Shown: piece by piece, positions 1 through 64,000 of the stretch
Numbering within the stretch: position 1 is the stretch's first letter
How the letters are laid out: every line of letters begins with the position of its first letter
The notes under the pieces: model-generated
Database searches by the model: none
The model's input: the letters and a program-made list of their open reading frames with translations, nothing else
Told to the model about the DNA's origin: nothing
Translations under genes and position numbers: made by a program
From: Microglena sp. YARC
Taxonomy: Eukaryota > Chlorophyta > Chlorophyceae > Chlamydomonadales > Chlamydomonadaceae
Direction: 5' to 3'
Assembly (NCBI GenBank): GCA_022414725.1
Contig: CM039465.1
Span: 25,979,056-26,043,055 of the forward strand
DNA length: 64,000 bases

Positions 1-1450
1 TGTGTGTGGTGTGGTGTTGCTGGTGGTGTGGGGAGTTGGTGTGTGTGTGTGGTGGTGTGTGTTGTGTGTGGTGGTGGTGTGGTGTGGTGTGGTGGTGGTG
101 GGTGTGAGTTGGTGTGTGTGTGTGGTGTGGTGTGGTTGGTGTGTGTGTGTGTGTGTGGTGGTGTGGGGAGTGGTGTGTGTGTGTGGTGTGTGGTGTGTGT
201 GTGTGTGGTGGTGTGGGGAGTTGGTGTGTGTGTGAGTTGGTGTGTGTGGTGGTGGTGTGTGGTTGTGTGTGTGTGTGTGTGGTGGTGTGTGTGGTGTGTG
301 TGGTGGAGTTGTGTGTGTGTGGTGTGTGTGTGTGTGTGTGGTGGTGTGTGTGTGTGGTTGGTGTTGTGTGTGTGTTGTGTGTGTGTGTGGGTGTGTGGTT
401 GTGGTGTGGTGGTGTGTGTGTGTGGTGTGTGTGGTGGTGGTGGTGTGTGGTGTGTGTGTGTGTGGTGGTGTGTGGTGGTGTGTGGGGAGTTGTGTGTGTG
501 TGTGTGTGGTGTGTGTGGTGGTGGTGTGGTGTGGGAGTTGGTGTGTGTGTGTGTGGTGGTGGTGGTGTGGTGGTGTGGGGAGTTGGTGTGTGTGTGTGTG
601 GTGTGTGGTGGTGGTGTGTGGGAGTTGGTGTGTGTGTGTGTGTGTGTGGTGTGGTGGTGGTGTGGGGGAGTTGGTGTGTGTGTGTGGTGGTGGTGGTGGT
701 GTGGGAGTTGGTGTGTGGTGTGTGTGTGGTGGTGGTGGTGGTGTGGGGAGTTGGTGTGTGTGTGTGTGGTGGTGTGTGGTGTGTGGGTGGTGTGGTGGTG
801 TGTGTGTGTGTGTGGTGGTGGTGGTGGTGTGTGTGGGGAGTTGGTGTGTGTGTGTGTGTGGTGGTGGTGTGGCGGAGTTGGTGTGTGTGTGTGTGGTGGT
901 GTGGTGGGTGGTGGTGGTGTGTGTGTGTGTGTGTGGTGGTGGTGGTGGTGGTGGTGTGTGTGTGTGTGGTGTGTGTGTGTGGTGGTGTGTGTGTGTGGTG
1001 TGGTGTGGTGGTGGTGGAGTGGTGTGTGTGTGTGTGTGTGTGGTGGTGGTGTGTGTGTGGTGTGTGTGTGTGTGTGGTGGGTGGTGGTGTGGTGTGTGTG
1101 TGGGTGTGCAGTTGGTGTGTTGTGTGTGTGTGTGTGTGGTGTGGTGGTGTGGTGGTGGTGGTATGGGGAGTTGGTGTGTGTGTGTGTGGTGGTGGTGGTG
1201 GTGTGGGGAGTTGGTGTGTGTGTGTGGTGGTGGTGGTGTGGTGGTGGTGGTGGTGGTGGGTGGGGGTGGGGGAGGGGTGCGGCGGGGAAGATTGTGGTGG
1301 TGGTGGTGTTTATATGGGGAGGTTGTTGGTGTGTTGGGTTAGTGGTGTTTATATGGGGGGGGGCGGGGGGGGGGGTAGGTGGTTGTGTGTGGGGGAGTGG
1401 TGGTGGTGGTGTGTGTGTGGAGGTGGTGTGTGTGTGTGTGTGTTAAGAGG
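1..1450. repeat. GT / GGT satellite
   Basis: Almost pure mixture of (GT)n and (GGT)n with recurring GGGGAGTTGGTGTG blocks. It lies in the intron after exon 8 of the minus-strand gene. Open frames across it encode only Val, Cys, Gly and Trp and are not genes. Confidence 0.95.
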
Positions 1451-1509
1451 TGGTGGTGTGGAGGTGGTGTTAGTAGCCTCTTTGCCCCGCCCTGCCCCCA
1501 CCCTGCCCC

Positions 1510-2690
1510 GAAAATAACTGACCATCACAACACACAGTCTTTGGCACCACGCCTGCCTCATCTTCTGCAACTCCTCCTCGTGACACAGTGTGCCCCCAGT
1601 CACTACCCTACCCCCCCCCACCCACCCACCCACACCACCACCCCACCCACCCCACCCACCCACACCACACACACCCACACACCACCAGCCTGCCCCCTTT
1701 TCCCCCACCCCAGCCTGCCCCCTTTTCCCCCACCCCAGCCTGCCCCCTTTCCCCCCACCCCAGCCTACCCCCTGCCCCCCTAAGCAGCATCAACACAACG
1801 CACCGTCTTAGGCTCCATGGCCTGCCTCATCTTGCGCAACTCCTCCTCGCGACCCAGTGTACACACACATCTGCTCCCCCCCCCTTCCCCCCCCCTCCTG
1901 CCCCCTTTGCCCCACCCTGCCCCACCCCACCACCCCAGCCCCCAAAACTGATCAACACAACACACGGTCTTAGGCACTATGGCCCCCTGTCGCCTTTGCT
2001 CCCCCCTGCCCCCCCCCCCCACAAAAAGAAACTGATCAACGCAACACACTGTCTTAGGTACCATTGCCTGCCACATCTTGCTCAACTCCTCCTCGTGACC
2101 CAGTGTGCCCACCAGCCTCCGTCAAAAACGCATTTGCACCCACACCTCCCCCCCCCACACCCACCCACCCACCCACCTACACAGACAAGTGAAACCCATG
2201 CATCGCCAGGCAACGCCAGAAATGGCGACACGTCACCCCCCCAAATCAATCAACACAGCGCACTATCTTCGGCACCATTGCCTGCCGCATCTTGCGCAAC
2301 TCCTCCTCGTGACCAAAGTGACCCCCTCCCCCCCCCCTACCCTTCCCCTACCCCCCTACCCCATCCAACAAAAAAGCTGACCATCACAACGCACCGTCTT
2401 TGGCACCATGGCCTGCCCAACTCCTACTTGTGACACAGCGTGCCCCCACTCACTACCCTCCCCCCCCCCCCCCCACCCACCCCTGCCCCTCCCCCCCCCC
2501 ACCCACCCCTTTGCCCCCCCTGCCCCCACCCCACCCCAAAAATACCTGACCAACACAACACAACCGTCTTTGGCACCATGGCCTGCCTCATCTTCTGCAA
2601 CTCCTCCTCGTGACCCAGTGTGCCCCCCACCCCCCACCCCCCCCCCACCACCCACACACCTTGGCCCTCAGCTCCTCCCCACCCCACACA
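1510..2690 (-). repeat. Array of exon 8 3'-edge copies
   Basis: About seven degenerate copies of the last part of CNB exon 8 plus donor, seen on the + strand as a GGCACCATGGCCTGCC block followed by CTCCTCGTGAC. They are separated by C-rich DNA. None is in frame with another. Confidence 0.8.
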
Positions 2691-2738
2691 CACTCCACCC
2701 CTAACTTCTGCCCCCTAAGCAGCATCAACACAACGCAC

Positions 2739-2944
2739 CGTCTTCGGCACCATGGCCTGTCTCATCTTGCGCAACTCCTCCTCGTGACCCAGTGTGCCCA
2801 CCGGCCTGCCTCCGTCAAAAAACACATTTGCAAGGATGCCAGTGTCGGCTAATGCCACCTTCTCCTTCCCATCCTCCCCGACCATGATGCGAGGAATCTC
2901 CTTCAACTGGAACTTGCGGTCATGGCTCTCCAGAAAGCAATTTC
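2739..2944 (-). CDS. CNB protein exon 8 (last exon in window)
   Basis: Two leading bases and 68 codons from acceptor ACACACACAG to donor GTGCGT. Encodes '[20 protein letters not shown]' and '[16 protein letters not shown]'. Both edges are copied: 5' halves at 3072-3167, 3294-3390, about 3475-3500 and 3600-3703, and 3' halves at about seven places between 1530 and 2625. This exon is the only complete one of the set. Confidence 0.72.
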
Positions 2945-3498
2945 CTGTGTGTGTGTGTGGGGGGGGGGGCGGTGTGGTGGTGGTGGTGGTAGTGGTGGTG
3001 GAGGTGGTGGTGGGGTTGGTGGAGGTGGGGGTAGAGGTAGTGGTGGGGGTGGTGGAGGTGTTGCTGGCTAATGCCACCTTCTCCTTCCCATCCTCCCCGA
3101 CCATGACGCAAGGAATCTCCTTCAACTGGAACTTGAGGCCATGGATCTCTAGAAAACAATTCCCCTGTGCGTGTGTGTGTGTGTGTGGGGGGGGGGGGGG
3201 GCGGTGTGGTGGTGGTGGTGGTGGTGGTGGTGGTGGTGGTGGTGGTGGTGGGTTGGTGGAGGTGGGGGGGAGGTGGGGGGGGGGTTGCTGGCGCTAATGC
3301 CACCTTCTCCTTCCCATCCTCCCCGACCATGATGCGAGGAATCTCCTTCAACTGGAACTTGCGGTCATGGCTCTCCAGAAAGCAATTCCCTGTGTGTGTG
3401 TGTGTGGGGGGGGGGGGGCGGTGATGGTGGTGGTGGAGGTGGGAGTGGGGGTGGCGTGGGTGTTGTTGTGTGTGTCATGGATCTCCAGAAAGCAGTTC

Positions 3499-3533
<35 letters not shown>

Positions 3534-6500
3534 TGTAGGTGGTGGTGGGGGTGGAGTTGGTGGTGGGGGCGGTATGTGTGTGGTGGAGAAGGTGGTGGTG
3601 TCGGCTAATGCGACCTTCTCCTTTCCATCCTCCCTAACCATGACGCGAGGAATCTCCTTCAACTGGAACTTGGGGTCATGGCTCTCCAGAAAGCAGTTCC
3701 CCTGCGTGTGTGTGTGTGTGTGTGTGTGTGTCAGGTCGGTTAGCCGAAATAGCAACCTGACCCACATAAATCTGAAAACAAAAATGGCCCACAAGTTTGA
3801 TACTTACCCTCCTTGATGAAGAAGACCCGTGGCTCTGTTGCAAGGTCCCAGTCCATGCCCTGTTTTTTCCCCTTGCGACGCTGCCTAGGACTTGTTTACA
3901 CACAGCAGACAAAACAAATGCAACTTTTCATGCTTGCTTTATTTGTGCTTGGGCTGCTTTATTATGTTGTTATGTTTGTGGCTTGCCCTCCTTGATGAAG
4001 AAGACCTGTGGCTCTGTTGCAAGGTCCCAGTGCATGCCAGGCTCAAGTCAATCAGCATAAATAGCGATTCAACCTGGCCAACATAAATCTGAAAATTCAA
4101 ATGGCCCATAAGTTTGATACTCACCCTCCTTGATGAAGAAGACCTGTGGCTCTGTTGCAAGGTCCCAGTCCATGCCCGGCTCATGTCAACCAGTCAAAAA
4201 AGTGACTCAACCTGGCCAACATGAATCTGAACATAAAAATGGCCCATAAGTTTGTAACTACCCTCCTTAATGAAAAATACCTGTGGCTCTGTTGAAGGGT
4301 CCCAGTTGATGCCCTGCTTGTTTATCCTTACAACGCTGCTTAGGACTTGTTTACGCACGGCAGACAAAACAAAAGCAACGTTTCATGATGGCTTTATTTG
4401 TGCTTGAGCTGCTTTGTTATGTTGTTATGTTTGTGCCTTGCCCTCCTTGATGAAGAAGACCTGTAGCTCTGTTGCAAGGTCCCAGTGCATGCCCGGCTCA
4501 AGTCAATTAGCCTAAATAGTGACTCAACCTGGCCAACATAAATCTGAAAAAAAAGGCCCATAAGTTTGTAACTTGCCCTTGTTGATAAAGAATGTGGCGC
4601 TGCCTAGGACTTGTCAACATTGACCTGTCAGGTGGCCCACTGGCCCACCACCACTTGCATATTTGTGATTGAGCTGCTATATTATGTTGTTATGTTTGTG
4701 GCTTACCCTTTTTGACGAAATATACTTGTAGCTCTGTTGCAGGGTCCCAGTGCATGCCAGGCTCAAGTCAAGTAGCCTAAATAGCGATTCAACCCGGCCC
4801 ACATAAGACTGAAAATACAGAATGCCCATACGATTGTAATTCACCCTCCTTCATGAAGAATGCAGAGCAAACTATGTCGAAATCGGCCTGTTGGTGGCCC
4901 ACTGGCCCACCACCACTTGCATAATTTGTGCTCGAGCTCCTATATTTTATTGTTATGTTCGTGGCTTACCCTTTTTGATGAAGAAGACCTGTGGCTCCGT
5001 TGCAGGGTCCCAATCGATGCCCTGCTTGTAGTGAGTCAGCAACATGTACTGCACTACCGCCTTCACATCCTCATCAGGGGCCCCCTTAAAGCTACAGTAC
5101 AAGGGATGTTTGTGTTTGTGTGTCCTATGTGTGTATGTTTGTATGTGTTGTATGTGTATGTATGTTTGTGTGTGTTTGTGTGTGTTGTATGTGTATGTAT
5201 GTTTGTGTGTGTTTGTGTGTGTTGCATGTGTATGTATGTTTGTGTGTGTTGTTTGTGTATGTATGTTTGTGTGTTTGTGTGTGTTGTACGTGTATGTATG
5301 TATGTATGTATGTATGTATGTATGTATGTATGTATGTATGTATGTATGTGTGTGTTTCTGTGTGTTGTATGTGTGTTTGTATGTTTGTGTGTGTTTGTGT
5401 GTGCTGTATATGTATGTATGTTTGTGTGTGTTTGTGTGTGTTGTATGTGTATGTATGTTTGTGTGTGTCTGTGTGTGTTGTATGTGTATGTTTGTATGTG
5501 TGTGTTTGTGTGCGCAGTGTGTGTATATATGTTTGTGTGTGTTTGTGTGTGTTGTATGTGTATGTATGTTAGTGTGTGTTTGTGTGTGTTGTATGTGTAT
5601 GTATGTTTGTGTGTGTTTGTGTGTGTTGTGTGCATGTATGTATGTACGTATGTTACAGTCCAGAGGTTGGCCAACCGTGATAGGAAGGGCTACAAAGAAA
5701 AGCATCGACGGGGGCCCTGCGTTCGTGCTACAGTGATCAGAAAGGTAATGATAACGCCTGGTGGGGCGTGGTGTTAAGGGAGCCCATCGTACACGGGTGG
5801 GGAGTGGTTTCCTACCTTAACTGGACAAGCTATTATCGCAGTTGACGACACCCTGCAACGCCAAGAGCGAACAAAGGGGGAGTCAAACCCCCGACTCTTC
5901 ATCCTCAAGCGATCTGGTCTACCACTAGACCATTGTATACCACGGAAAGGGGCTGCTACAGTGATCACTAAACTAAGCGGATTTAGGTGAGGACAAGGTG
6001 TTATCGACCGGGAACCTCAAAGTCAGCTACGAGCAAGCAAATTTCACCTACAAGCACACATTTCATCTACAAGCGAGCAAAAAAAAACAGCTAAAAGCAA
6101 CAGTCACCTACAAGCAAGCAAAAGTCAGCTACAAGCAACAGTCAGCTACAAGCGAGCAATTGTCAGCAACAAGCAGCAGTCAGCTACAAGCAACAGTCAG
6201 CTACAAGCAAGCGAAAGTCAGCTACAAGCAAGCAAAAAGCAGCAAAAAGCAGCAGTCAGCTACAAGCAAGCAAAATTCAGCTACAGGCAACAGTCAACTA
6301 CAAGCATAAGTAAGCTACAAGCAAGCAAAAGTCGGCTACAAGTAACACATAATTCAAGCAAGCAAAAGTCAGCTACAAGAAGCAGTTAGCTACAAACAAG
6401 CAAAAGTCAGCTACAAGCAACAGTCAGCTACAAGCAACAGCTTCTTTTTTCTGAAAGCAGTGTGATACTCACATATCAACACTATCTTTGAAGAACTCGT

Positions 6501-9500
6501 TTGCTTGTCGCATCTTCTCCCCAAAGTGTGCGCCGAAGATCTCCATGAAGTGCTGTCGGTCAACCTGGGGGGTGCAGTGAGGTACAGTGAGGTGAACCTG
6601 TGAGGTACACAAACAGCGGGTGGATCTCTGTTTAGCTTGTTACGTACCTAGGTCATTATGCCTTGTCTACACTAGTACCACAAACTTCGCGCTCCGCGGG
6701 GTTCGGGGGGCAGGGCGTCGCACTGGGGTCGCACCGAGTTGTACAATTTGCGACGCGTCGCATAAAAACAAAACAGTGGTCTAGTCCAGTTCATTCATTA
6801 TGCCTTTAGTTAGCCAAAAGATCCGCCTAACTGCTGCTGGTCATAGCTGAAAAGAAAAGCTATGTTGTCATTCATAAAAGGCAACACCAAAAATGCACAA
6901 CAAAGAAAATCCCCGTTTACCGAATGGCTCAAAGGCAGAGCTCCTTGAACGATGTAGGTGCTGATTTCGAATTCTCACGGTGCGCTCTAGCGTTCGCGGT
7001 CGCTGCCAACCGCCATGGTAGCTTTGTCCAGGTAAAGTAGCAGCCCGTTCCCTTTTGCCGAAAGGCGGGGCTCCCTTAATACCACTGATTCTTTTTTCAA
7101 ATCTGAAAGTGAGTTTCTTCTAGCTTTATGGTTTCAGGGCTCCTCCAGGGACAGCGTTTTAGTGCTTTATATAGCTTTTTATAGCTTTTTGGGGCCATTT
7201 AGGGCAGAAACAAAACAACTTTTTTTCCTTTTTTTATAGCGATAATATCGCTAAAACGGGGTCAAAACTATCGATCGCTATATATAGCGGAAATAAAAAT
7301 CCCCACCAGGCGTTATCATTACTATGCTGTCATTCATAAAAGTCAACACCAACAATTCACAACACAGAAATTGACATTGCACAATAAAATGCAAAAAAAA
7401 TACGCACAGACACGACTGCAAGAATAAAATGCAGGAAGAAATACAAGAAAAACATTACAAGAAAAACAACCAATGCAGGTAAAAATGCAACAACGTGAGG
7501 CAAGGAAAACAATGCTAGGATGTAAGGCAATAGATAGAAATAATTGATTGAAAAGACAAAAAATGCAAGAAAAACAATGCAATAATATAAGGCAAGGAAA
7601 ACAATGCAATAACATAAGGCAAGGAAAACAGTACAAGATACAAATGCAATAATAAAATAAAAAAATACAATACAAGAAAAATGCAACAACGTGAGATAAG
7701 TCAAGCAATGCAGGGAAACAATACAAACAAATCAGTGCAGGGAAACAATAAAAAGATCAATGCAGGAAAAATGCAATAACATGAGGCAAGTCAAGCAATG
7801 CAGGGAAACAATATAAACAAAGCAATGCAAGAAAACAATACAAACAAAACAGTCCAGGAAAACAATGCAAGGATAGAAGGCATTACAAACAATGCAGGGA
7901 AAAAACAAACACAAAGCAATGCAGGGAAACAATACAAAGATCAACACGAAAAATGCAATAACATGAGGCAAGTCAAGCAATGCAGGGAAACAATATAAAC
8001 AAAGCAATGCAAGACAACAATACAAACAAAACAGTCCAGGAAAACAATGCAAGGATAGAAGGCATTACAAACAATGCAGGGAAAAAACAAACACAAAGCA
8101 ATGCAGGGAAACAATACAAAATCAACACGAAAAATGCAATAACATGAGGCAAGGCAAGCAATGCAGGGAAACAATACAAACAAAGCAATGTAGGGAAACA
8201 ATAAAAAATCAACGCACGAAAAATGCAACAACATGAGGCAAGGCAACCAATGCAGGGAAACAATAACAAAAGCAATGCAGGAAAACAATGCAAGGATATA
8301 CAGCAGGACAAACGATGCAAGGATAGAAGGCATTACAAACAATGCAGGTAAAAAAACAAACACAAAGCAATGCAGGGGAACAATACAAAATCAACACACG
8401 AAAAATGCAATAACTTGAGGCAAGGCAATCAATGCAGGGAAACAATACAAACAAAGCAATGCAGGGAAACAATATAAAATCGACGCACGAAAAATGCAAC
8501 AACATGAGGCAAGGCAACCAATGCAGGGAAACAATAACAAAAGCAGTGTAGGAAAACAATGCAAGGATATATAGCAGGACAAACAATGCAGAAAACAATA
8601 AAAAAACAATATAATAATATAATGCAAGGAAAAGAATACAAGAATATAAGGCAACACACAAAAAGCAGGGAAACAATAAAAACCAATACAGGATAAACAA
8701 TACAAGACAAACAATGCAAGAATATAAGGCAAGAATATAAGGCAAAACACACAATGCTCAGACACAAACCATGCAAACAAGTTGACTTAATACTTGGTGT
8801 TGCACAATATAATATAATACACTATACTATACTATACTATACTATACTATACTATAATATAATATAATATAATGCATAGGCACAAACCGTGATGACAGTT
8901 GAGTCGCTACTTGCGGTTGCACAATATAATGAAAGACAAACAATGCACAATAATACAAACAATGCACACACAGTAAGACAAATTATGCACACACACAATA
9001 AGACAAACAATGCACACACACAATAAGACAAACAATGCACAATAAGACAAATAATGCACACACACAAGAAGACAAACAATACACACACACAATAAGACAA
9101 ACAATGCACACACACAATAAGACAAACAATGCACACACACAATAAGACAAACAATGCACACACACAATAAGACAAACAATGCACACACACAATAAAGACA
9201 AACACAAAAATAATGCACATAGACAAACAATGCACACACACAAAGCACAATAAGACAACAATGCACACACACAATAAAACACACAATGCACACACAGTAG
9301 AAACAAGCAACAAATAAGACAAACAATGCACACACACAAACAATGCACTAAGACAAACAACAACACAGCAATGCACACACACAAAATAAGACAAAACAAA
9401 CAAATAAGACAACACAGCACACAGAATAAGACAAACAATGCACACCACACAAACAATGCACACACACAGTAAGACAAACAATGCACACACACAATAAGAC

Positions 9501-12500
9501 AAACAATGCACAATAAGACAACACACACAAACAATGGACAAACATAAGACAAACAATGCCAAATAAGACAACACAAATGCACACAATCACAATAAGACAA
9601 ACAATGCACACACACAATAAGTACAGTGCACACATACAGACAAACAATGCACACACAAATAAGACAAACAATGCACACACACAATAAGAACAAAACAATG
9701 CACACACACAAGACAAACAATGCAACACACAAAGAACAAACAATGCACACACACAATAAGACAAACAATGCACACACACACAATAAGACAGACAAACAAT
9801 GCACACACACAATAAGACAAACAATGCACACACACAATAAGACAAACAATGCACAATAAGACAAACAATGCACACACACAATAAGACAAACAATGCACAA
9901 TAAGACAAACAATGCACACACACAATAAGACAAACAATGCACACACACAATAAGACAAACAATGCACACACACACAATAAGACAAACAATGCACACACAC
10001 AATAAGACAAACAATGCACACACACAATAAGACAAACAATGCACACACACAATAAGACAAACAATGCACACACACAATAAGACAAACAATGCACACACAC
10101 AGTAAGACAAACAATGCACACACACAATAAGACAAACAATGCACAATAAGACAAACAATGCACACACACACAATAAGACAAACAATGCACACACACAATA
10201 AGACAAACAATGCACACACACAATAAGACAAACAATGCACAACACAATAAGACAAACAATGCACAACACACAATAAGACAAAACAATGCACACACACAAT
10301 AAGACAAACAATGCACACACACAATAAACAAAACAATGACAAACAATGCACACACACAATAAGACAAAACAATGCACACACACAATAAGACAAACAATGC
10401 ACATAAGACACACACAAACAATACAGACAAAACAATGCACACACACAAAAAATACACACACAATAAGACAAACAATGCACAATAAGACAAACACACACAC
10501 ATAAAACCCAATGACAATAAGACAAACAATGCACACACACAATAAGACAAACAATGCACACACACTAAATAAAACAATGACAAACAATGCACACACACAA
10601 TAAGACAATGCACACACACAATAAGACAAACAACACACACAATGCACAACACACATAAGACAAACAATGCACACACACAATACAGACAAACAATGCACAC
10701 ACACAATAAGACAAAACAATGCACACACACAATAAGACAAACAATGCACACACACACAATAAGACAAACAATGCACACACACAATAAGACAAACAATGCA
10801 CACACACAATAAGACAAACAATGCACACACACAGTAAGACAAACAATGCACACACACAATAAGACAAACAATGCACACACACAATAAGACAAACAATGCA
10901 CACACACAATAAGACAAACAATGCACACACACAGTAAGACAAACAATGCACACACACAATAAGACAAACAATGCACACACACAATAAGACAAACAATGCA
11001 CACACACACGTAAGACAAACAATGCACAACACAATAAGACAAAAAATGCACACACACATAAGACAAATAATGCACACACACAGTAAGACAAACCAACACA
11101 CAAGACACACACACACACAATAAGACAAACAATGCACAACACAATAAGACAAAACAATGCACACAACAACTAAGACAAACAATGCACACACACACAATGC
11201 ACACACACAATAAGACAAACAATGCACACACACAAAGACAAACAAATGCACACACACAATAAGACAAACAATGCACACAACAATAAGACAAACAATGCAC
11301 ACACACAACAGACAAACCAATGTTACAATAAGACAACAATGCAACACACAATAAGACAAAACAATCACACACACAATAAGACAAACAATGCACACACACA
11401 TAAGACAAACAATGTACAATAAGACAAACAATGCACACCACACATAGACCAATGCACAATAAGAAAACAATGCACACACACATAAGACAGTAAGTGCAAT
11501 TGAACAATGGACATATTGCACACACCGTGAGGACAGTTGAATTGCTTCTAGAGGTAGCACAATATATTATCATGTATATAACTAATATCATATCATATCA
11601 TATCATATAATACAATTCAATACAACAAATGTATATACACGCACTGTGAGGACAGTTGAGTTGCTGCTAGAGGTAGCACAATCGCATCGTGACTCGTTGT
11701 TGAGGATGGACAAATCTCCAAAGCACATGCCCTTCTTCAGAGTCGCAATTACAGAACGGTTTCGGAGCTGACCAGGAGGGTGGGTCCAAATTTCCACGAA
11801 CCTGAAGGTCAGGGTAGGAGGGTAAGGGGGTAGAAGAGTAAGGGTAAGGGTAGGAGGGTAGGAGGTAGCGGTCGAGAGTAGGAGGGTAGAGATGGGACGA
11901 GAGGGTTAGAGAGGAGGGGTAGGAGAGAGTAGGTATATGGTATGGAGGGTAGAGGGCAGGTAGGGGTGGGAGAGGTAGGAGGGTAGGAGAGGTAGGAGGG
12001 GAGGAGGGTAGGAGAGGGTAGGAGGGGTAGAGGTAGGAGGTAGGAGAGGGTAGGGAGGGTAGGAGAGGGTTTAGGAGGGGTATAAGGAGGAGGGGTAGGA
12101 GGGTAGGAGGGGTAGGAGAAGAGGTAGGAGGGGTAGAGGGTAGGAGGGGTAGGAGAGGGTAGGAGGGGGTAGGAGGGGTAGTAGGGTAGGAGAGGAGGGT
12201 AGGAAAGGTAGGAGGGGTAGCGAGGGTAGGAGGTAGGAGGGTAGGAGAGGTAGGAGAGGGAGTGAGTAAGGAGGGTGGGAGAGGTAGGAGGGGGTAGGAG
12301 AGGGTAGGAGGGTAAGCGGGTAAATCGGAAGTGATAATGACTGAGTGTAAGATTGTGGGGGGAGATCGGTAGAGGGGCTGGGTGGGGTTGGGCTTGAGGA
12401 TGTGGAGCGAGGAGTTGTGGGTGTGTGTGGGGTATTGGTGGTGGGGGTGGAGGGGATGAGGAGGAGGCCATGTGTGTTGTGTGTGTGGTGTTGTTGTGTG

Positions 12501-26974: not shown

Positions 26975-26979
26975 CTTAC

Positions 26980-27300
26980 AAGCCCTCTTTGCTTGTGTGC
27001 AGGCTCTTGTTGCTTTTGTTGCAGGCCCTTCTTTGCTTTTCTAGCAAGCCCTTTGTGTTAGTGTGCGGGCCCTTTTTTCACTTACAGGCCCTTTTTTATT
27101 TACTTGCAAGCCCTCAGTTTGTGTGCAGGCTCTTTTTTGCTTTTCTTCCAAGCCCTTTTTTGTTTGTGTGCGGGCCCTTTTTTTACTTATAGGCCTTTTT
27201 TTTATGCGGGCTTTTTTTTGCTTACAAGCCCTTCTTATTTTTGTGCAGGCCCTTTTTCACTTTCGGGCCCTCTCTTTTACAAAAAGGATTTTCACCCCTC
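26980..27300. repeat. GCCCTTTTTTGCTTACAGGC degenerate repeat
   Basis: Six or more imperfect copies of an approximately 30-50-bp T-rich unit immediately upstream of the CNB start codon. It may form part of the 5' untranslated region or promoter. Confidence 0.75.
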
Positions 27301-29761: not shown

Positions 29762-47321
<17,560 letters not shown>

Positions 47322-48792: not shown

Positions 48793-48814
48793 CCCCTACA
48801 CGCCTTATAATGTA

Positions 48815-48965
48815 ATGATCGCTGTAGCACGAAATCAGGCCCACCGTCGGTAAAACGATTATTTGGGGTTCAGTTCGGCAATGTTTTACTATTTGTAAGC
48901 CTTTCCTAGCACGGTTGGGCAAGTCTCTTTTGGCTTACACCTGGACTGTTACATGCATACATACA
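48815..48965 (+). mobile_element. SINE-like element, copy
   Basis: Begins ATGATCGCTGTAGCACGAAA, contains GGTAAAACGATTATTTGGGG and GGGCAAGTCTCTTTTGGC, and ends CTGGACTGTTACATGCATAC with a short ATAC tail. Confidence 0.65.
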
Positions 48966-49184
48966 ATGACAGGATTAATTTGTCTACCTCTGTCCAGTCG
49001 AGTCAGTTTGAGAAGAATATGGAGGGGGAATATTTGGCTACTCGCCGTCTTTGGCAGGGGGAAAGTAAGGAAAATGTAAACGCGAACAATCACTTTTTCA
49101 TTTTTTCCTGTTGGAAACAGATGGGGGGCAAAAAAAGGTGAAAGACACCAACCCCAACCCAAAAAGTGCTGTAGCATCTTTCTG

Positions 49185-49404: not shown

Positions 49405-49440
<36 letters not shown>

Positions 49441-49453
49441 CTGTATGGCTGTA

Positions 49454-49484
<31 letters not shown>

Positions 49485-49790
49485 ATGTGCCCTGGGCAAA
49501 ATATGTGGTGGGTCTCTCCTCCAAAAGTATTTTTGGACTAGTATTTAGTAGAGCAACACCCTAGTTCCACTCCCATACCATTCTGAGGGCTAGAAAAAAG
49601 TGCCTGGAAAGTACTTAATTTGTTGAAAATGTCAGATGTTTTCCTTGATCCCCACCCCCCCACCCCCCACCCCACCCCACCCCGCGGCCCCAAACTTAGG
49701 AGGACCGTTACTTTTTTCTACTGGGCCAAATCTAGAAATAAAACCGGATTCATCATCCTAACTATGTTATTTATAGAGAGGATGAGCGAT
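49405..49790 (+). mobile_element. Dispersed repeat with GA tract and poly-C (copy 2)
   Basis: Inverted partner of 30470-30871. It starts at a (GA)n tract, has poly-C at 49456-49483, and ends near AAAACCGGATTCATCATCC. The colinear shared blocks are about 15-20 bases each between variable homopolymers. Confidence 0.65.
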
Positions 49791-52610: not shown

Positions 52611-55600
52611 CTGGGAACATAGAAAAAGGCGGGCGATTCAGTACAGGAGGAATCAACACATGTTTCACATGCATGAACGACCTTGAGGGCAGAGCCCTTA
52701 TTAAAGCGGGTGGGGGTGCTCCCTGGGTCCACCCCTAACCCCCTGGTTCTGGACACTCTGGGTTATATGACACAGTTGACAACACTTAACACTTCCAAGA
52801 GTTGCCCAGCGGACCTGATAAAAAAGAGAACGCCTGGAGGGGCGTGGCGTTGGGGTACCCTTCCGTACGCGTACGCCAAACCTAGGGAAAGTCACCATGG
52901 ACCTGATAACATAGAAGACTCACTTAGCCCACCCATTAGGCCATCCCAAGACTGTAAAAACATGATTAAGACTGATAGGCCATGTAACTAAGGATAGGGA
53001 ATATGATCTGACATCATGTCATCATTTGAAGTTGCTTTCAGACTCAAGCTAAAACAACTGCTTCCATATGGTGGCAACTATATGATATCATATGATATCA
53101 TGAACAGGTCTGCTCAATCTCTGATGGTGTGATTTTTAAAACCCCTACATGTAACCAGAGCAGTGCATAAAACTGGCATACCCCTGGACTGTCCTGCATG
53201 CTACTGTATTATTGCTCCGCAACAAGGACGATAATTGCAAAAATAAATTATCACTGGAGCACAAAACTCAGGGCCTCCATCGGTAAATCGTTGTTTGGAA
53301 TTCAGTTCATCAGTTCTCTTTTCTTTTCAGACTCTCATGATATCATGGTTGGGCGGGTCCCTTTAGCCTATCTGGATTCCCCTAGACTGTAACAACTGAC
53401 AAATACACATGCGCACTGCTGTCCTACCCACACCCAGGCGAATGCTCTAAAAACATTGCTTGGGCTGACTGTGGTCTCATGACAGAAATGAATAAATGGT
53501 ATAATGACATAACCGTCTAAATGGTCTAATGCCATAAACTACTTATGGTCGAATGATTTAAATGTGTAAAAAGCTTTCATTTTATTAACAGGCCCACACG
53601 CCCTCTTCGCCCGTCCCTCAAAGGGACTCAGGGGCTTCACAAATCAAATTGAAGTGGAGGAACGAGTCGCACGCTGCGTCACGAGCGACGCGGGAAATTG
53701 GCAGAGAGTGTTGGCTATCAGAGCGACAGATGTCAACAGAATCGAGTGCAGCGAACCAAAGCCAGGGGTTTTAAAAAAGGAAACCGAAGACAGGTAGGGC
53801 CATGGGCTTCATGTGGTGGCATGGGCAGAGGGACTACACAGTGCCCCTGAGGGTAAAAAAACAATGAAGCAAAAGCAAAAACGAGCAAAAACAAGCTTAA
53901 GCAAAAACAATAGAGCCCCTTACCTCAGGCTTCTCAGCCCTCTTCCTCTGGAGGAGCTCCATGGAGGCACCGACGATGGAGCGGGTGGCGTTCTTGCCGT
54001 TGTTACGGCGCTTCCTGCGGGTACCCTCGGACACCTGCACACATGGAGGCAGTGATGGAGTTTAAATTTGAAATTCGAATGACGCAGTTTGAAAAGTGGA
54101 AAGTTAAGGAGCAGGTGGCGTTCTTGCCATTGGGTCAGCGCTTCCTGCGGGTAACCTCACCTGCAAATTTGCAGACTGTGACGGCATTGGTGAAATGATC
54201 CAGAGGAAGAGGGCTGCAATAAGGGTGTCTGGGCCCAATCGAACTAGCTGAACATGCTAGAACTAGCTTTAGATCCCATTCCCTAAGCCCAACACTGACC
54301 ATTATATATTCCGATGTCGGGTTGCAAGCAAAATAAGCTAGTGCAATAAGAAGAATGAACAGAGCAGGTAAGCGCCCAAGGTGCTTATATCCTGGTTGGC
54401 AATCTTATCTGAGTTGACCACATGAATGTTGACACTAGAATGTGTTAGAATCTATCGCACTATACCAAAGCACCTGAATAAACATCTGATCAGATGCACT
54501 CCATTCAGGTGTGCTTGGTACACATAGCATATTGTGTGGCAAGTTTCATAACACGGTATAACATTTAACAATGTTACCCAAGTCATGTTTTACTACCATT
54601 CCAGTGATCTCTCTAGGTAATGAGGTATGGAGACAAGGGAGTAGTGCTAGCATTTGGCAGGGCTTTTTGTCCTTTTTATAGAGGGGATCTTCTAGTAGCT
54701 TTCAGGATTTGGTCCTTAACAAGGGTGGGGTCTAGGTAGTGGTACAATAAGGGTCGCCGGAAGGGACGCATCAGGAGGTTGTCAGGGTAGATGAAGTTTG
54801 AGCCAAGACGGGGTCCCATGTAACGATCGCTTTAAGTAAAGGGAAGAAAGCTGACATTTGAGTTTGCTTGAATGAGTAGATTACACCTGGGAATGGGTGC
54901 TATGAGTGATGTGCACATGTCTGCTGTAACTATTTACATCACCTGAAGTGTGACCAAGCTTAAAAAGCTATTCCAGGCCCAATACACCTTGCCCTCGCCC
55001 CACCCCACCCCACCCCACACACCCCTACCCCCCACATGCCACACACACACACACAATCCATCTTCCCCACACACACACTTGCACCTTGCAGCAACCAAAT
55101 CCCACTATTACTTTTCCATATGAAATCACACCTGGCAAACAAGGCTGAACACACCTGCTAGTCCATAGCTTTCCTCTTCAGCTATGGGCAACAGCATCCA
55201 GGCAGATACTTTGACTGGCTATTCAGGCAAAACAAATACAACATATCGTACTGTAGATGCGATGGTGTGACTTTGTACTAGGTTCACTGAAATTAGTGAG
55301 AATACTCGCAACCACGTCTACAATGCACACAGCAGTAGGGAACGGCAGTATGGTATCATATGATTGCTACCTAGGCCCCCGTTTTGGCCTAAACTTCTGC
55401 TACCATGAGACTCCACTACACTGAGACTCCACTATACGGAGACTCCACTCCACTCAGACTCTCCTATACCCCCCCCCCCACCACCACAAACACACACACG
55501 GGTCCCAAATCACACAATTCGCCACCTGGAACCCACCCTCAGGCTACCCAGTCCAGGGCAATTAATAATCAGGCTACCCAGTCCAGGGTAATCAATCATC

Positions 55601-56425
55601 AGGCTACCCAGTCCAGGGCTTTAATCCCCACTACCCATAGCGATCGCTACTTAGGACCCCATTTTGACCAAACCATTCACTACCCTGAGAATCTACTATC
55701 CTAACCCCCCAGGGTCCTTACTCGCCCAAATCATCCAATTCACTACCTGCAACCCTCGAAAGGCTCCAAATCCTTGATTACTACCAGAAGACACCCTTTC
55801 TAAAGCAGCAAAGTACTCAGACCCAGTCCTTACCCCTGAATGCATCACCACTGCCCTGGCCTTGCTCTCCCACAATGGCATGGCAGACCCATGTGATAAG
55901 ATTCACCATCTGTTGGATTCAACCTAGGTGATACAAACCAGTAGGGTATGCCCATCCATGAAACACACTTTGTTCAGACTTCCATCAGAAGGCTGTCCGT
56001 ATCTAAACACAACTCTTGCTCATGGGTACCAGAGGCGCTGACAGGGCATGCCTCACCTGATACACACATCTCCGACCTTCATGCACAAATACTTGAGCTA
56101 AGAAATGCCCTCCAAGCTGAATTAGTATCAGACTACTTTTGAACTAAGTACTGCATTCCCTTGCCCACACTCAAACCCAGTGCAATTCGAGGCAGTACTC
56201 CTCACCACTCCACCCCACTCAACCACCCACCTGATCCTTCTTGTGGGCCTTGCGGTAAGCAGCGGTCCAAGCAAGCTTGGCGGGCCTCAGCCTGTTGTTG
56301 AACAGGGACCTGCATTTCTTGCTAAGGAACAGGAACTGCTGTCCGTCGATGCGGACGAACACGACACCCCTACCGGGGTAGATCCTGAGACCGCTGAAGC
56401 GGCAGAGAGTTGTCTTTAAAACCAT
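52452..56425 (-). CDS. RPL24: 60S ribosomal protein L24 (eL24), complete
   Basis: Three exons (56425-56231, 54034-53924, 52610-52452), all phase 0, give 154 residues, close to the usual length of about 157. eL24 is a cytosolic large-subunit protein near the subunit interface. Hallmarks: '[19 protein letters not shown]' at the N terminus, '[16 protein letters not shown]' ending exon 1, '[20 protein letters not shown]' in exon 2, and the C-terminal 'VVGGKR'. The ATG is fixed by the conserved 'MVLKT' start. Exons 2 and 3 use strongly C/G-ending codons (AAG, GCC, CGC), as expected for high expression; flanking DNA does not. Introns are 1.3 and 2.2 kb. A copy of the exon 2 5' edge lies upstream at about 54105-54165. 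Confidence 0.96.
52790..52925 (-). repeat. Weak copies of RPL24 exon 3 acceptor
   Basis: GCGGACCTGATAAAAAAGAG (52809) and CATGGACCTGATAACATAGA (52897) resemble the real boundary GCGGACCTGGGAACATAGAA (52605-52624). They lie upstream of the exon in transcription order. Confidence 0.45.
53235..53400 (+). mobile_element. SINE-like element, copy
   Basis: Starts TTATCACTGGAGCACAAAAC, contains GGTAAATCGTTGTTTGGAA and GGGCGGGTCCCTTTAGCCTA, ends CTAGACTGTAACAACTGAC. It lies in RPL24 intron 2 in the opposite orientation. Confidence 0.62.
53924..54034 (-). CDS. RPL24: RPL24 exon 2
   Basis: 37 codons, acceptor TGTGTGCAG, donor GTAAGG; encodes the basic 'RRKRRNNGK' stretch and ends 'KRAEKPE'. Confidence 0.95.
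54105..54165 (-). repeat. Copy of RPL24 exon 2 5' edge
   Basis: CAGGTGGCGTTCTTGCCATT and CAGCGCTTCCTGCGGGTAAC match exon 2 in inverted read, followed by an acceptor-like CACCTGCAAA. Located upstream of exon 2 in transcription order. Confidence 0.75.
54170..55160. other. RPL24 intron 1, no recognised feature
   Basis: Non-repetitive sequence except AC-rich tracts at 55000-55080. No exon or RNA gene supported. Confidence 0.4.
55160..55250. mobile_element. Hairpin (MITE-like) element fragment
   Basis: CATAGCTTTCCTCTTCAGCT, ACAGCATCCAGGCAG and TATTCAGGCAAAACAAATAC resemble the 5' half of the 59290 copy. Confidence 0.5.
55535..55625. repeat. AGGCTACCCAGTCCAGGG repeat
   Basis: Three copies of AGGCTACCCAGTCCAGGG separated by ATTAATAATC or TAATCAATCATC. 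Confidence 0.85.
56231..56425 (-). CDS. RPL24: RPL24 exon 1
   Basis: 65 codons from ATG to donor GTGGGT, containing the conserved L24e domain. Confidence 0.95.
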
Positions 56426-58599: not shown

Positions 58600-58750
58600 G
58601 ACATACGTATGTATGCATGTTGTTACAATCCAGGGGTAGGCCAAATAGGCTGGAGGGGCTTGCCCAATCGTGAAAGGGGCTAAAACGAAAAAACACTAAT
58701 GCTCTGGACTCCAAACAATCGTCGTACTGATAGGTGACGTACTGAAATAA
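58600..58750 (-). mobile_element. SINE-like element, inverted copy
   Basis: Read on the minus strand: ends GGATTGTAACAACATGCATA after GGCAAGCCCCTCCAGCCTA. An ACATACGTATGTATG tract marks the tail side. Confidence 0.6.
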
Positions 58751-58959
58751 GTTACAGTTGGGGATTGACCTTGAGTCGTAGCATTACTGTACCCTTGTGA
58801 GATATCCAGTTGTGCGTAAACAAAACACAATGGAAGACCCCTCCACATCTCCTGGAAGTTGGGGATTGGGCTTCTCTTGGGACAACACTGGCCTGCCTGT
58901 GGCAATGTAACGTAATACTTCCAACATTCTTGCATACCATGGCTTACTGGCTCAGCAGG

Positions 58960-59150: not shown

Positions 59151-59289
59151 AATGCTGCGATTAACAGAAGACACTGCAGCATCTGAAATTCTAGCAAACG
59201 CTCAACAGCACCCCCACCCTGAAATACTCCAATAAAACTCACACCTCGCTAGGTACATGACAACACGGATGCTAGTAAAGTGGTAGTTC

Positions 59290-59500
59290 TGTAAGAGGGA
59301 GCAGCATAGCTTTTCTTTCAAGCTACGAGAAACAGCTTCTAGGCAGCTCCCCTGGCAGGCTGTTCAGCCAAATCACAAGCAACATAGTGCACCTGGAAGC
59401 TGGCGTAACCAGCTTTCTAGAATTGCAGAAATTTGAGGGTATATCCCAGTGGCTTGCTCAGGGAGCTACCCAGAAGCTGCGAAGAAAAGCCAAAAAGAAA
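59290..59500. mobile_element. Hairpin (MITE-like) element, copy 3
   Basis: Best-preserved copy. The left end CAGCTTCTAGGCAGCTCCC and right end GGGAGCTACCCAGAAGCTG are near-perfect inverted repeats. Internal CAGCCAAATCACAAGCAACA matches 28382-28401. No ORF. Confidence 0.65.
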
Positions 59501-59517
59501 AGCCCTAGGGAACCGGA

Positions 59518-59936: not shown

Positions 59937-59992
59937 TTTCATAAGCTTTATCAAATACTATCCGAATTTGATCACCAATCTCGCAGCCCCCT

Positions 59993-60291
59993 TCACTCCT
60001 CGCCATCAACACCCTCATCATCATCATCGTCTTGTCCAACAGCCCGTGTGAAGGCAGCAGCCTTTCTGGCGGCTTTTCGCTTAGGTCGATTCCCTGCTTC
60101 AACTGCCGCTGCCACCTCTTCCTTGATACCATAAGGATCCCCCTCCTCGTCGTCGTCCTCATCGTAGTACTCGCCTTTCTGCTTGGTGGTGAAGCGATTT
60201 GAACCACTAGCACCGCGGCCTGCTTTGCTCGGGTTGTGGCCACGGCTGCTCCTCTTCACTCCGCGCTGCTTTTCCCTTCCATAGCGCACAC
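59993..60291 (-). CDS. GATA protein last exon
   Basis: Two leading bases, 98 codons and TGA. Acceptor TTTGATTCGCAG. Starts 'VRYGREKQRGVKRSSRG', the basic tail that follows GATA fingers, and ends in an acidic stretch. Confidence 0.88.
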
Positions 60292-63192
60292 CTGCGAATC
60301 AAACACAAGAGAAGACGATGCGGAGGTCAGATATGCTGATAGGGAGATATGAGGGTAGGGTGATATGCTGGTAGGGAGATATGCGGGTAGGGAGATATGC
60401 TGATAGGGAGATATGAGGGTAGGGTGATATGCGGGTAGGGAGATATGCTGGCAGGGAGATATGATGGTAGTGAGATATGATGGTAGTGAGATATGCTGTT
60501 ATGGAGATATGACGCGAGGGAGATATGATGCTAGGGAGGATCCCATATGAATAATTTAACACCCTATATGCATATTCAAACAACCCATATGCATCCCATA
60601 CGCATATTCAAACACCCTATATGCATCCCATATGCATATTCAAACACCCTATATCCATATTTAAACACCCTTTATGCATCCCATATGCATATTCAAACAC
60701 CCTATATCCATATTCAAACACCCTTTATGCATCCCATATGCATATTCAAACACCCTATATCCATATTCAAACACCCTTTATGCATCCCATATGCATATTC
60801 AAACACCCTATATCCATATTCAAACACCCTTTATGCATCCCATATGCATATTCAAACACCCTATATGCATCCCATATCTATAGTCAAACACCCTACATCC
60901 ATATTTAAACACCCTTTATGCATCCCATATGCATATTCAAACACCCTATATGCATCCCATATCCATATTCAAACACCCTATATCCATATTTTAACACCCT
61001 TTATGCATCCCATATGCATCTTCAAACACCCTATATGCATCCCATATGCATAGTCAAAGATCCCATCCCCCTTCAGCAATTGCTCTACCCTCGTGCCCGG
61101 AGATTTCCAGGTGATCAGACCTATCAGTACAATGGAAGAGAATCATGTACCTATCCAGACCAATTGCTCTACCCTCGTGCCAGGAGATTTCCAGGTGCTC
61201 TGACCAATCAGTACACCAGAAGAGAATCATGTCCCTATTCAGACCAATTGCTCTACCCTCGCGCCAGGAGATTTCCAGGTGCTCTGACCAATCAGTACAC
61301 CAGAAGAGAATCATGTTCCTATCCAGACCAATTGCTCTACCCTCGTGCCAGGAGATTTCCAGGTGAGCAGACCAACAAGTACACCAGAAGAGAATCATGT
61401 TCCTATCCAGACCAATTGCTCTACCCTCGTGCCAGGAGATTTCCAAGTGAGCAGACCAACAAGCACACTAGTAGAGAATCATGCTGGGGTTCAGTTAATC
61501 AGTACTTTTTCTTTTTAAGCCCTTCCTGCGCGTTTGGGCAAGTCCCTTTAGCCTATTTGGCCTAACCCTGGACTCCAACAACATACATGTTTCTATCCAG
61601 TCCCCGCACACTTACCGCAAGCATTGCACAACGTTTTGGGACCTGCGGAGGATGAGAGAGATTACACAGGGTGTCAGGCAATAGTAAGGTTTTCTGGGGT
61701 ATGATGGGTGGGTGGGTGTGTGGGGGGGAGGGAGTGGGTGGTGGTGGTGGTGGTGGTGTGGGGAGATGGGGGGGGGGGGGGCAGCCTCCACCACCATAAG
61801 TTTTGGGCTCAACTATAGAGAAAATAAACAACCATTAGGATGTAATCGGGGATGCTCCTATCATTGATTCTTTGGGTTTGTTGTTTTCTCAACTTGCTTA
61901 CAGTTTTCAAGACTTATGCGTTTTACACCAAGCCAACCCTCCTCAAACCTGATATATTAGGGTGTAATATATTCATGAGTTATCAGGCAGGGTTTGGAAT
62001 TGGAAGCTCAGTGCAGAAGATTTCGAATGTCTATTGCCATTTTGTGTTTTAATATCGTACTCTCACCGCCCTCATGAACTGTCAGGTAGCCAGGCCCATA
62101 GGAGTCAAGCTAGCCCCCTTAAGTTAAAAGGATTAGAATGAGTAGCAAGAACACACATGAGGTCTAGGTCGATTCCCTTTAATTGTTGTCTTTATTGCCG
62201 ATAAAGAGATGGTAAATTGATAGTGGATGATGGCGACAGTATGGCATTGTTTTCTTCAGAAGGAATGAATAAATTGAAATTATGTGGATGATACCTTTTG
62301 TACAATGCAAATACCAGCCAAGTCCCTTTACAATCAGAAAAGTACATGCTAAGGCTCACAAGGCAACTGTTAGTTGTCACACCCCACTCTACTCACCCAA
62401 CTCCACCCACCCCACTCCGCACCCACCCCTCTACCCACCCCACCCCACTCCCTCACCCAACCCCCCCTCCACCCACCCACTCGAGACAAACCCACTCCAC
62501 ACAGCCCACAGCACTCATCGGTAGGACCTTCACGCCACTTGGGAGTTTGTGACGCCCCACACTCCACAACACGTGCCACTTTCCTCACCCTCACAGCCCA
62601 CTCACCTCACTCACCCACCCCACTCCCCTTTCCACACAGCCCACTCCCCTCACCCCACTCCCCCCACCACACTCACCGGTAGGACCCTCGCGCCACTGGG
62701 GAGTTTGTGTCGCTCCACACTCCACGCAACACATGCCCGGACCGCCACCAGGGACTCGCTGAGCAAGGATCTTCTCCTTGCTACCGACAACGGTATCAAC
62801 AGCAGCACGGGGTACCCCCGCTGATGGGGGTCGAGCTGAGCCCCCCCTAGAGCGCTCTTCCGCGTCGTATGCCTCCTCCTCCTCCTCCTCGTAATTGTCC
62901 ATCCCCCCCAAATCGTACTCGGGCTGGAGCTGGGGTCCGGGCATGAGCATCATACTACCAATACTGCCCCGTCCACTCATACCACCCAGCATGTCAGGCC
63001 CCCCGAGGGGTTCCCCTGCATCCCTGCCTGCACCTGCACCACTGCGGCCTCGATCCACCAAACTGCCCACCCCACCCTTGACTCCAAACCCCATGCCAGG
63101 GTCCAAAGCGGCTATGTCCAAGGATGTCTGAACATCCATGGGAGGGAAAAAGGCATTGGTGTTGACACCCTGGGGGAGGCCCTCGTTCAGAG
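59993..63192 (-). CDS. GATA-type zinc-finger protein (N terminus off window)
   Basis: Exons 63192-62677, 61642-61616 and 60291-59993 join in frame and give the C-terminal 279 residues plus a stop. The first exon begins mid-codon at a CGCAG acceptor, so an upstream exon is expected, perhaps beyond the right edge. Encoded order: a Gly/Met-rich region, a Glu-rich acidic patch, then 'CVECGATQTPQWREGPTG' plus 'PKTLCNACG' plus 'VRYGREK', a single C-x2-C-x18-C-x2-C finger with the plant-type 18-residue loop. Then a basic tail with a likely nuclear signal ('NRPKRKAARKAAAF') and an Asp/Glu-rich C terminus. The family binds WGATAR sites and regulates transcription in the nucleus. Copies of exon edges lie at 62517-62580 and 63340-63440. 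Confidence 0.88.
60310..60545. repeat. GGGAGATATGCTGGTA repeat
   Basis: About 14 copies of a 16-17-bp unit of the AGGGAGATATGATGGT type in the last GATA intron. Confidence 0.92.
60550..61065. repeat. CATATGCATATTCAAACACC repeat
   Basis: About ten copies of a 53-bp composite unit (ATGCATCCC, ATATGCATATTCAAACACCC, TATATCCATATT) with shorter variants. Confidence 0.93.
61070..61470. repeat. 84-bp minisatellite
   Basis: Five copies of a unit starting CAATTGCTCTACCCTCGTGC and containing GGAGATTTCCAGGTG and AGAGAATCATGT. Divisible by 3, hence open on both strands; not coding. Confidence 0.93.
61480..61592 (+). mobile_element. SINE-like element, 3' part
   Basis: Contains GGGTTCAGTTAATCAG, GGGCAAGTCCCTTTAGCCTA and CCCTGGACTCCAACAACATA, lacking the first third. 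Confidence 0.6.
61616..61642 (-). CDS. GATA protein 27-nt microexon
   Basis: Acceptor CATCCTCCGCAG, donor GTAAGT. Encodes 'PKTLCNAC', the second zinc-ligand pair, with split Gly codons at both ends. Too short for ORF-based prediction, but dictated by the family. Confidence 0.88.
61680..61785. repeat. GGGTGGGTG / GGT repeat
   Basis: Low-complexity G/T tract upstream of the microexon on the minus strand; there it is a CCACC-rich tract. Confidence 0.9.
61800..62370. other. GATA intron, no recognised feature
   Basis: Moderately AT-rich unique sequence in the intron between the two finger exons. No exon or element recognised. Confidence 0.4.
62370..62676 (-). repeat. CCCACTC-rich DNA with copy of finger exon edge
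   Basis: Minus-strand 62580-62517 repeats the exon end ('VECGASQTPKWREGPT') downstream of the real exon. Its donor is altered from GTGAGT to ATGAGT. Flanked by ACTCCCCTCACCCC-type repeats. Confidence 0.85.
62677..63192 (-). CDS. GATA protein exon with first half of finger
   Basis: 516 nt, acceptor TTTGCGCAG, donor GTGAGT. Encodes 'NEGLPQGVNTNAF', the acidic 'EEEEEE' patch and the first zinc-ligand pair 'CVEC'. Confidence 0.85.
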
Positions 63193-63204
63193 CTGCGCAA
63201 AGGC

Positions 63205-63445
63205 AGGGGAGGGTGGGTGGGTGAGGCAGGAGGGCGGGGGTGGGGGCAGTTTGTGTGTGTATTTGTATTTGTGTTTGTGTGTGTGTGTGTGTTGTGTGTG
63301 TGTGGGGGGGGGGGGGGGGGGGGGGGGTCCAAAAGCGGCCATGTCCAAGGCTGTCCGGACATCCATGGGAAGGGAAAAGGCATTGGTGTTAACACCCTGG
63401 GGAGACCCTCGTTCAGAGCTGCGCAAAGGCAGGGGGGGGGGGGAG
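63205..63445 (-). repeat. GT/poly-G satellite with copy of GATA exon 5' edge
   Basis: Minus-strand 63440-63340 duplicates acceptor TTTGCGCAG and about 85 bases of the exon ('NEGSPQGVNTNAFSLPMDVR'). (GT)n and poly-G at 63252-63327 separate it from the true exon. Confidence 0.88.
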
Positions 63446-63499
63446 GGGGGGTGGGTGAGGCAGCGAAAAGGGGGGGCATGGAGGCAGGGGAGCGGGGGC

Positions 63500-63552
63500 A
63501 GTTTGTGTGTATGTGTGAGTGTGTGTTTGTGTGTGTGTGTGTGTGTGTGCTT
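63500..63552. repeat. GT repeat
   Basis: GTGTGTATGTGTGAGTGTG tract. Confidence 0.9.
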
Positions 63553-63704
63553 GGGGAGTGGAAAGAGGCGGCATAAGGAAATTTCAATCACTGTTGAGGA
63601 GGGTGCACGCGATACAAGTCATACATAGGGATGTCAATATCGTACTGGTCCCCAGGATTATCGGGCGATATATCATACGATATATTGATATACTGTACGA
63701 TATA

Positions 63705-64000
63705 AGCCCCCCCCCGCCCTGGGGTATTTTCACACACCTTGGTTCTCACACCTCTTTATAAGCCCCCCCCCCCCCCCCCCCCTCCCCCCCCTGGGGTATT
63801 TCTCACACCTTGGTTCTCACACCTGTTTATAAGCCCCCCCCCCCCCCCCCCCTGGGTATTTCTCACACCTTGGTTCACACACCTGTTTTTAACCCCCCCC
63901 CCCCCCCCCCCCCCTGGGTATGTCTCACACCTTGGTTCACACACCTGTTTATAAGCCCCCCCCCCCCCTGGGTATGTCTCACACCTTGGTCCACACAGAA
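63705..64000. repeat. About 60-bp poly-C minisatellite
   Basis: Four to five copies of TGGGTATTTCTCACACCTTG then GTTCACACACCTGTTTATAAG, each followed by a 10-25 base poly-C run; continues to the window edge. Confidence 0.93.

Follow-up and report, generated by a model that had tools for sequence, protein, structure and literature searches.

Partial exon copies with strict polarity in the long introns of a green alga probably reflect general tandem-repeat growth that captures exon edges

The 64,000-nucleotide (nt) stretch of the Microglena sp. YARC genome considered here, termed the window, covers bases 25,979,056-26,043,055 of contig C4, in a genome of 568 Mb and 2,390 contigs, and is free of runs of N. 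On its plus strand lies a deacetylase gene of nine exons (29762-47321); on the minus strand lie a CNB gene (11645-24114), an RPL24e gene (53923-56420), a GATA gene (59993-63192) and S, a small candidate orphan gene (2717-6563). The noncoding DNA of these genes contains partial copies of their own exons, and a first-pass annotation of the window had described these copies as strictly polar on both strands. This polarity is evident in a census of 21 exons from the five genes. All 32 copies that span an acceptor (5ʹ-edge copies) lie upstream of the real exon and on the gene strand, and all 66 copies of a 3ʹ edge lie downstream, again on the gene strand; 63 of the latter are at donors and 3 at the terminal coding end of the third exon of S. 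Edge copies are present at 9 of 18 acceptors and 12 of 18 donors. Most exons carry them (16 of 21, or 16 of 22 if C0, a candidate first CNB exon, is counted), a smaller count than the 18 or more of 25 exons of the first-pass annotation.

For the census, every exon was taken together with 40 nt of flank and searched against its own gene region (BLAST, E<=1e-3), and an edge copy had to contain at least 12 exon nt and at least 2 nt past the exon end; C0 was left out. Without gene S, the counts are 28 of 28 5ʹ-edge copies upstream and 57 of 57 3ʹ-edge copies downstream. Internal exon pieces likewise obey the polarity (2 of 2 and 5 of 5), and there is one minus-strand internal match. The 95 splice-boundary copies (32 acceptor, 63 donor) contain exon plus adjoining intron sequence. 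The copies run head to tail on one strand with similar unit length, as in a minisatellite or tandem-repeat array. Five of the 21 exons, among them deacetylase exon 5, have no edge copy at this threshold, and no whole-exon copy was found for any census exon. When the search was relaxed to E<=1, no edge copy appeared on the wrong side of an exon in the window; internal matches fell on both sides and strands, as in shuffles. In the shuffled control that the annotation had suggested, flanks shuffled as 3-mers produced no match at E<=1e-3 in three runs; at E<=1 they produced few matches, two of them edge-type and both in one of the three runs. An earlier census of 20 exons, with C0 in and RPL24 out, gave 31 of 31 and 80 of 80, with one minus-strand match. 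The two censuses differ because the end of deacetylase exon 8 was shortened by 5 nt, which brought 14 donor-side copies under the 12-nt rule, and because RPL24 adds one 5ʹ-edge copy.

In the deacetylase gene, exon 1 (29762-29999) is followed by one 3ʹ-edge copy (30132-30221), exon 2 (30961-31079) by six (31177-32165), each with 56-57 exon nt, exon 3 (34588-34668) by five (34791-35337) and exon 4 (36940-37058) by six (37167-37633). Upstream of exon 5 (38279-38384) is a short 5ʹ fragment with its acceptor (about 38050-38081), recognized by eye and missed by the BLAST census. Exon 6 (40320-40380) has arrays on both sides: six 5ʹ-edge copies upstream (38815-40206), each with the acceptor and 12-36 exon nt, and, downstream, 21 copies of the last 12-15 exon nt with the donor (40381-41629). 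Exon 7 (43670-43850) is preceded by ten 5ʹ-edge copies (41804-43586), one of which (42111-42286) holds 136 of the 181 exon nt, and is followed by one 3ʹ-edge copy (44054-44122). Five 5ʹ-edge copies (44458-44950) precede exon 8 (45015-45122), after which comes an array of its last 10 nt with the donor (about 45123-45500) that is below the 12-nt rule and outside the census. The last exon, exon 9 (47219-47321), was located via the homologue P0002 and has three 5ʹ-edge copies upstream (46815-47170). A 40-base-pair (bp) intron part of this acceptor array (46924-46963, 47044-47084) recurs at 49067-49106, about 2 kb past the gene.

The real exons still join in frame, as first described. The 219-residue join of the deacetylase exons matches the EukProt protein P0001 (344 residues), a public protein model, at 98% along the whole join, and the best named matches are chlorophyte proteins from Sanguina (71%), Volvox (72% over 80%) and Coccomyxa (66%). 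Junctions 1-7 are set by P0001, with 30 of 30 residues at every junction, and the join of exons 8 and 9 is based on P0002. In this region (45015-47321), P0001 itself exits exon 8 before its end and translates exon 9 in a different frame (end VHQANGAQYRVPH), a departure that is either a prediction error or alternative splicing. The exons of CNB, GATA and S were joined via the reading frame. Joining raised the Pfam score of GATA from 24.2 to 55.5 bits and the cNMP-binding score of CNB from 29.4 to 33.4 bits, the matched profile range of the latter growing from 3-26 to 3-75. The boundary initially drawn for CNB exon 3 was discarded as out of frame with the next exon, and shifting the donor by 4 nt restored the cNMP-binding frame.

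The CNB gene, modelled from its frame join and Pfam match, has four exons with edge copies (23892-24114, 14958-15106, 13462-13680 and 11645-11801). C0 (about 26832-26980), whose ends are unconfirmed, has no copies. A 3ʹ-edge copy of the exon at 23892-24114 lies about 8 kb downstream (15714-15745), beyond a (ATACATGCT)n array. This 9-bp-type array, with consensus ATACATGCT, extends over about 8 kb (15760-23884) and occupies one CNB intron; ATACATGCT-like arrays are also present on other contigs. The RPL24e gene (exons 56231-56420 and 53923-54033; RPL24e match about 56231-56416) has one 5ʹ-edge copy (54108-54184) upstream of its second exon. In the GATA gene (exons 62677-63192, 61616-61642 and 59993-60291), the first exon has one copy per edge and the other two have none. 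Gene S has three exons that join in frame (6473-6563, 4970-5085 and 2717-2944), with six donor-side copies after exon 2 and four acceptor-side copies before exon 3; the 3ʹ part of its last exon is also copied past the stop codon (1480-2700), where there is no splice site. No Pfam match and no homologue of S were found within the limits of the search, and it remains a candidate gene. Two other repeats are present in the window. One is dispersed, about 45-160 bp long, in both orientations and 76-93% alike (35127-35594, 48814-48967, 53240-53394, 58611-58730 and 61485-61588), and is perhaps a transposable element remnant. The other is an inverted pair of about 370 bp with 78% identity (30481-30836 and 49405-49766).

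Repeats make up much of the deacetylase introns, of which 13,968 of 16,444 bases (85%) are local direct repeat. Spans reaching from an exon edge to its farthest copy take up 8,979 intron bases (55%), which is an upper bound for edge-derived growth, the exon-derived letters being fewer. The title of the first-pass annotation, that introns are filled with copies of exon edges, is overstated. Nor is there any sign that edges are preferred sites of duplication. In a test that scored any spanning local copy with the same query shape, and in which interior points were random and at least 150 nt from exons, such a copy was found at 19 of 33 edges vs 214 of 252 intron-interior points in 15 introns. 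Copied acceptors (8 of 17) had their copies upstream in every case, and copied donors (11 of 16) downstream. Averaged across the 15 introns, 81% of interior points were copied, 71% having an upstream copy and 67% a downstream copy. The Fisher p value for fewer copies at edges is 0.0005, with points that share an array not being independent. Edges as duplication hotspots were therefore rejected, and the annotation's view of exon boundaries as the preferred place and main route of intron growth is not upheld. Furthermore, the exon extents of the copies vary between the 12-nt threshold and 136 nt, so the splice site does not fix the breakpoints, and the copying of the last exon of candidate gene S past its stop codon means that no splice site was required there.

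The extents also bear on how many duplications each edge has undergone. Thirteen edges have three or more copies, and at five of these the exon extents lie within 7 nt of each other: deacetylase exons 2, 3 and 9, the exon 6 donor (for the 12 of 21 copies listed) and CNB exon 3. The extent is 56-57 nt in 6 of 6 copies of deacetylase exon 2 and 93-100 nt in 5 of 5 copies of CNB exon 3, and tight extents of this kind fit one founding event followed by array growth. At the other eight edges the extents are mixed, with two classes at the acceptors of deacetylase exons 6 and 8 and a spread from 23 to 136 nt at exon 7. Copies are on average closer to each other than to the exon at 9 of the 13 edges, some by small margins. 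With only five edges tight and eight mixed, a single founding event per edge is weakened as a general account; one founding duplication at each edge, or a few, plus later growth fits the data and is not proven by them.

Outside the window, the pattern is found in some genes and is absent from others. In three other deacetylase-family genes, two of five exons, defined by homology and with approximate ends, carry copies of the same polarity. Locus L038 has nine 5ʹ-edge copies upstream and seven 3ʹ-edge copies downstream, and L039 has four and three, respectively, with no wrong-side copies among those listed at either locus. Six beta-tubulin genes with short introns (L040-L045, 2.3-3.0 kb each) have no edge copies at E<=1e-4, and neither do an S20 gene of two exons and a TPR open reading frame (ORF) just beyond the window at the same threshold. 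One beta-tubulin gene has a purely intronic duplication (L043, 943-1246). The generality implied by the annotation is not supported, given these tubulin and S20 genes and three of the five exons of the other deacetylase-family genes; the few genes sampled associate the pattern with long, repeat-grown introns, and it is not universal among them. The S20 gene (two ORFs) and the TPR ORF, along with retroelement pieces, came from a Pfam scan of 40 of 1,015 ORFs at 20 loci, 17 of them at round coordinates and 3 adjoining the window. Retroelement ORFs, among them Copia-type reverse transcriptase (RVT_2), occur at L012, L017, L018, L020 and L026, and a search for HSP70 located multi-exon genes.

The arrays leave decoy splice sites, a point on which the first-pass annotation stands. 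Most copies retain the splice dinucleotide, GT in 55 of 63 cases on the donor side and AG in 26 of 32 on the acceptor side, and a depletion of decoys was rejected. Weight matrices were derived from the 18 real donors and the 18 real acceptors, with the tested site left out, and under them decoys score close to real sites: 5.59 vs 6.17 at donors and 4.97 vs 4.22 at acceptors. In 24 of 63 donor and 21 of 32 acceptor cases, the decoy equals or exceeds the score of its own real site. Compared with the expectation from local identity, retention is 74 of 82 vs about 62 at donors, where 17 of the 82 rows are invalid owing to the misplaced end of exon 8, and 27 of 31 vs about 24 at acceptors; the latter tally differs from 26 of 32 through one added copy and the handling of gaps.

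These observations are probably best accounted for by a general tandem-repeat growth of introns that sometimes captures exon edges. Introns would lengthen via local head-to-tail duplication of units from tens of bp to a few hundred bp long, presumably by slippage or unequal exchange, and minisatellite-type expansion, which may take place anywhere in noncoding DNA, would follow. A duplicated segment running from intron into exon would produce an intron end with the exon start, followed by the same intron end and exon start with the rest of the exon, and the mirror image would arise at a donor. Of the two copies, the intact exon would then be the downstream one at an acceptor and the upstream one at a donor. 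Because the sole intact exon stands at the far end, 5ʹ fragments would be found upstream only and 3ʹ fragments downstream only. Edge fragments would later amplify together with the array, whereas duplications within coding sequence, or those doubling a whole exon, would presumably be purged by selection. An enumeration of the geometry returns the same polarity, which is true by construction. Polarity, which the annotation had presented as a special regularity, is the sole outcome when a tandem duplication crosses one boundary and an intact exon is kept, and was dropped as independent evidence of a new mechanism. Since it is forced by head-to-tail duplication, it favours tandem duplication over transposition or retroposition and holds no further mystery. 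Boundary-spanning tandem duplication, proposed in the annotation as the main route of intron growth, is retained as one route, which the copies fit and which may have contributed much of the added deacetylase intron length, and is not retained as the main one.

Several points weigh against general repeat growth with occasional capture of edges. At 4 of the 13 edges, the copies resemble each other no more than they resemble the exon, and mixed extents at 8 of 13 possibly reflect several crossings per edge. The enumeration makes whole-exon duplicates common for exons of 60 nt, none is seen in 21 exons, and selection has to be invoked. The comparison of edges and interior points covers one window, leaves RPL24 out, uses a CNB exon 3 end that is 4 nt short and counts copies farther than 5 kb as none; the donor of the CNB exon at 23892-24114 was scored uncopied for this last reason. 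Tandem repeat averages 33% (range 1-95%) across 17 ten-kb loci at round coordinates, which agrees with general repeat growth, but this fraction counts intergenic DNA too. Lastly, all evidence is drawn from a single genome, and about 16 genes were inspected altogether.

Among the alternatives, the one that survives best, and is still unlikely, is a boundary-directed process, such as one initiated by R-loops or splice-junction breaks, that duplicates edges preferentially and acts as the chief driver of intron growth. It is in keeping with copies at more than half of the edges tested, with up to 55% of deacetylase intron length in edge-array spans and with the greater density of tandem repeats reported close to intron-exon junctions in Chlamydomonas and Volvox (PMC3887541), and the mixed extents would permit repeated crossings. 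However, interior points have copies no less often than edges do, the extents vary from 12 to 136 nt, the coding end of candidate gene S is copied with no splice site present, and the tubulin and S20 genes have splice boundaries yet no copies. Less probable again is that selection maintains the decoy arrays, for instance as splicing enhancers or expression brakes. The dinucleotides kept in most copies, scores near those of real sites and a retention somewhat above expectation (with the invalid donor rows included) are what such selection could produce, but 5 of 21 exons do without copies, and decoy retention is not independent evidence because copies within an array share descent. That misassembled reads produced the partial exon copies is very improbable: runs of N do occur in some loci (L010, L022 and L028), but the window is free of them, mean identity to the exon edge is 82-92% at the 13 edges with three or more copies, below the near-identity of read duplication, and the same polarity is seen for genes of either strand as well as on two other contigs. 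Insertion of fragments via transposition, retroposition or template switching could in principle put exon pieces into introns, but is the least credible account, as it predicts copies on both sides and in both orientations, whereas 98 of 98 edge copies are on the predicted side and strand, the copies include adjoining intron sequence, and the sole partial exon copy found in a genome-wide protein search, of low sensitivity for short pieces, was at its own locus.

Growth by tandem repeats has known counterparts. Minisatellites consist of units, each about 10 to a few hundred bp long, arranged head to tail in variable copy number; the window arrays share this head-to-tail arrangement, but their units can include an exon edge with its splice site. 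Introners, which are mobile elements that create introns, disperse the same element across the introns of many genes and leave insertion marks. The window arrays each repeat the edge of their own exon, and, with several low-complexity stretches and matches <35 bp omitted, a self-comparison of the window contained no exon fragment common to different genes; the 40-bp intron part of the exon 9 array does, however, recur near 49067. In the potato RdRp gene, a tandem genomic duplication across an intron-exon boundary made a new intron (PMC4974935). As in the window, a boundary-spanning tandem duplication leaves a second copy of the splice signal beside the exon there; potato has one duplication and a new intron, whereas the window has many edges of several genes with arrays inside introns. 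Chlamydomonas reinhardtii and Volvox carteri, likewise green algae with repeat-rich introns, have tandem repeats enriched close to intron-exon junctions, with more of them toward the intron ends (PMC3887541). However, the relevant passages of that report describe neither exon-edge sequence in the units nor polarity, and in the window the intron interior is repeated no less often than the edges. A literature search, mostly of titles and the openings of abstracts, yielded no account of polar exon-edge arrays, and their absence from print is not claimed. What appears to be new here is tandem-repeat intron growth that captures exon edges and yields orderly decoy arrays; tandem-repeat growth itself is known.

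The finding cautions against postulating a special mechanism, in that strict polarity can arise from a simple mutation process together with the need for one intact exon. It also indicates a possible route to longer introns without transposons. Gene annotation is at risk in genomes of this kind, as exemplified by the divergent reading of exons 8 and 9 in P0001. The arrays further place similar splice sites, distinguished mainly by their position, in natural competition, which is useful for the study of exon selection in a green alga with long introns. By geometry, no pair among the similar competitors lies closer together across the exon than the real one, and the real site is marked by position, not strength. 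This suggests, without proving it, that splice sites are chosen by proximity across the exon and that the decoys would go unused. Carranza and colleagues reported that pairs nearest across the exon are favoured when alternative sites lie in large introns (PMC9225289); the nearest pair among competitors is common to both systems, and this alga may splice in the same way. A bolder and still tentative proposal is that tandem-duplication growth in this lineage has ringed numerous exons, in genes with long introns, by near-identical, full-strength decoys, always outside the exon, so that correct splicing would be achieved only via across-exon pairing, and that the arrays may be a source of new introns or alternative exons. 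If true, this genome would constitute a natural large-scale test of exon versus intron definition in a green alga.

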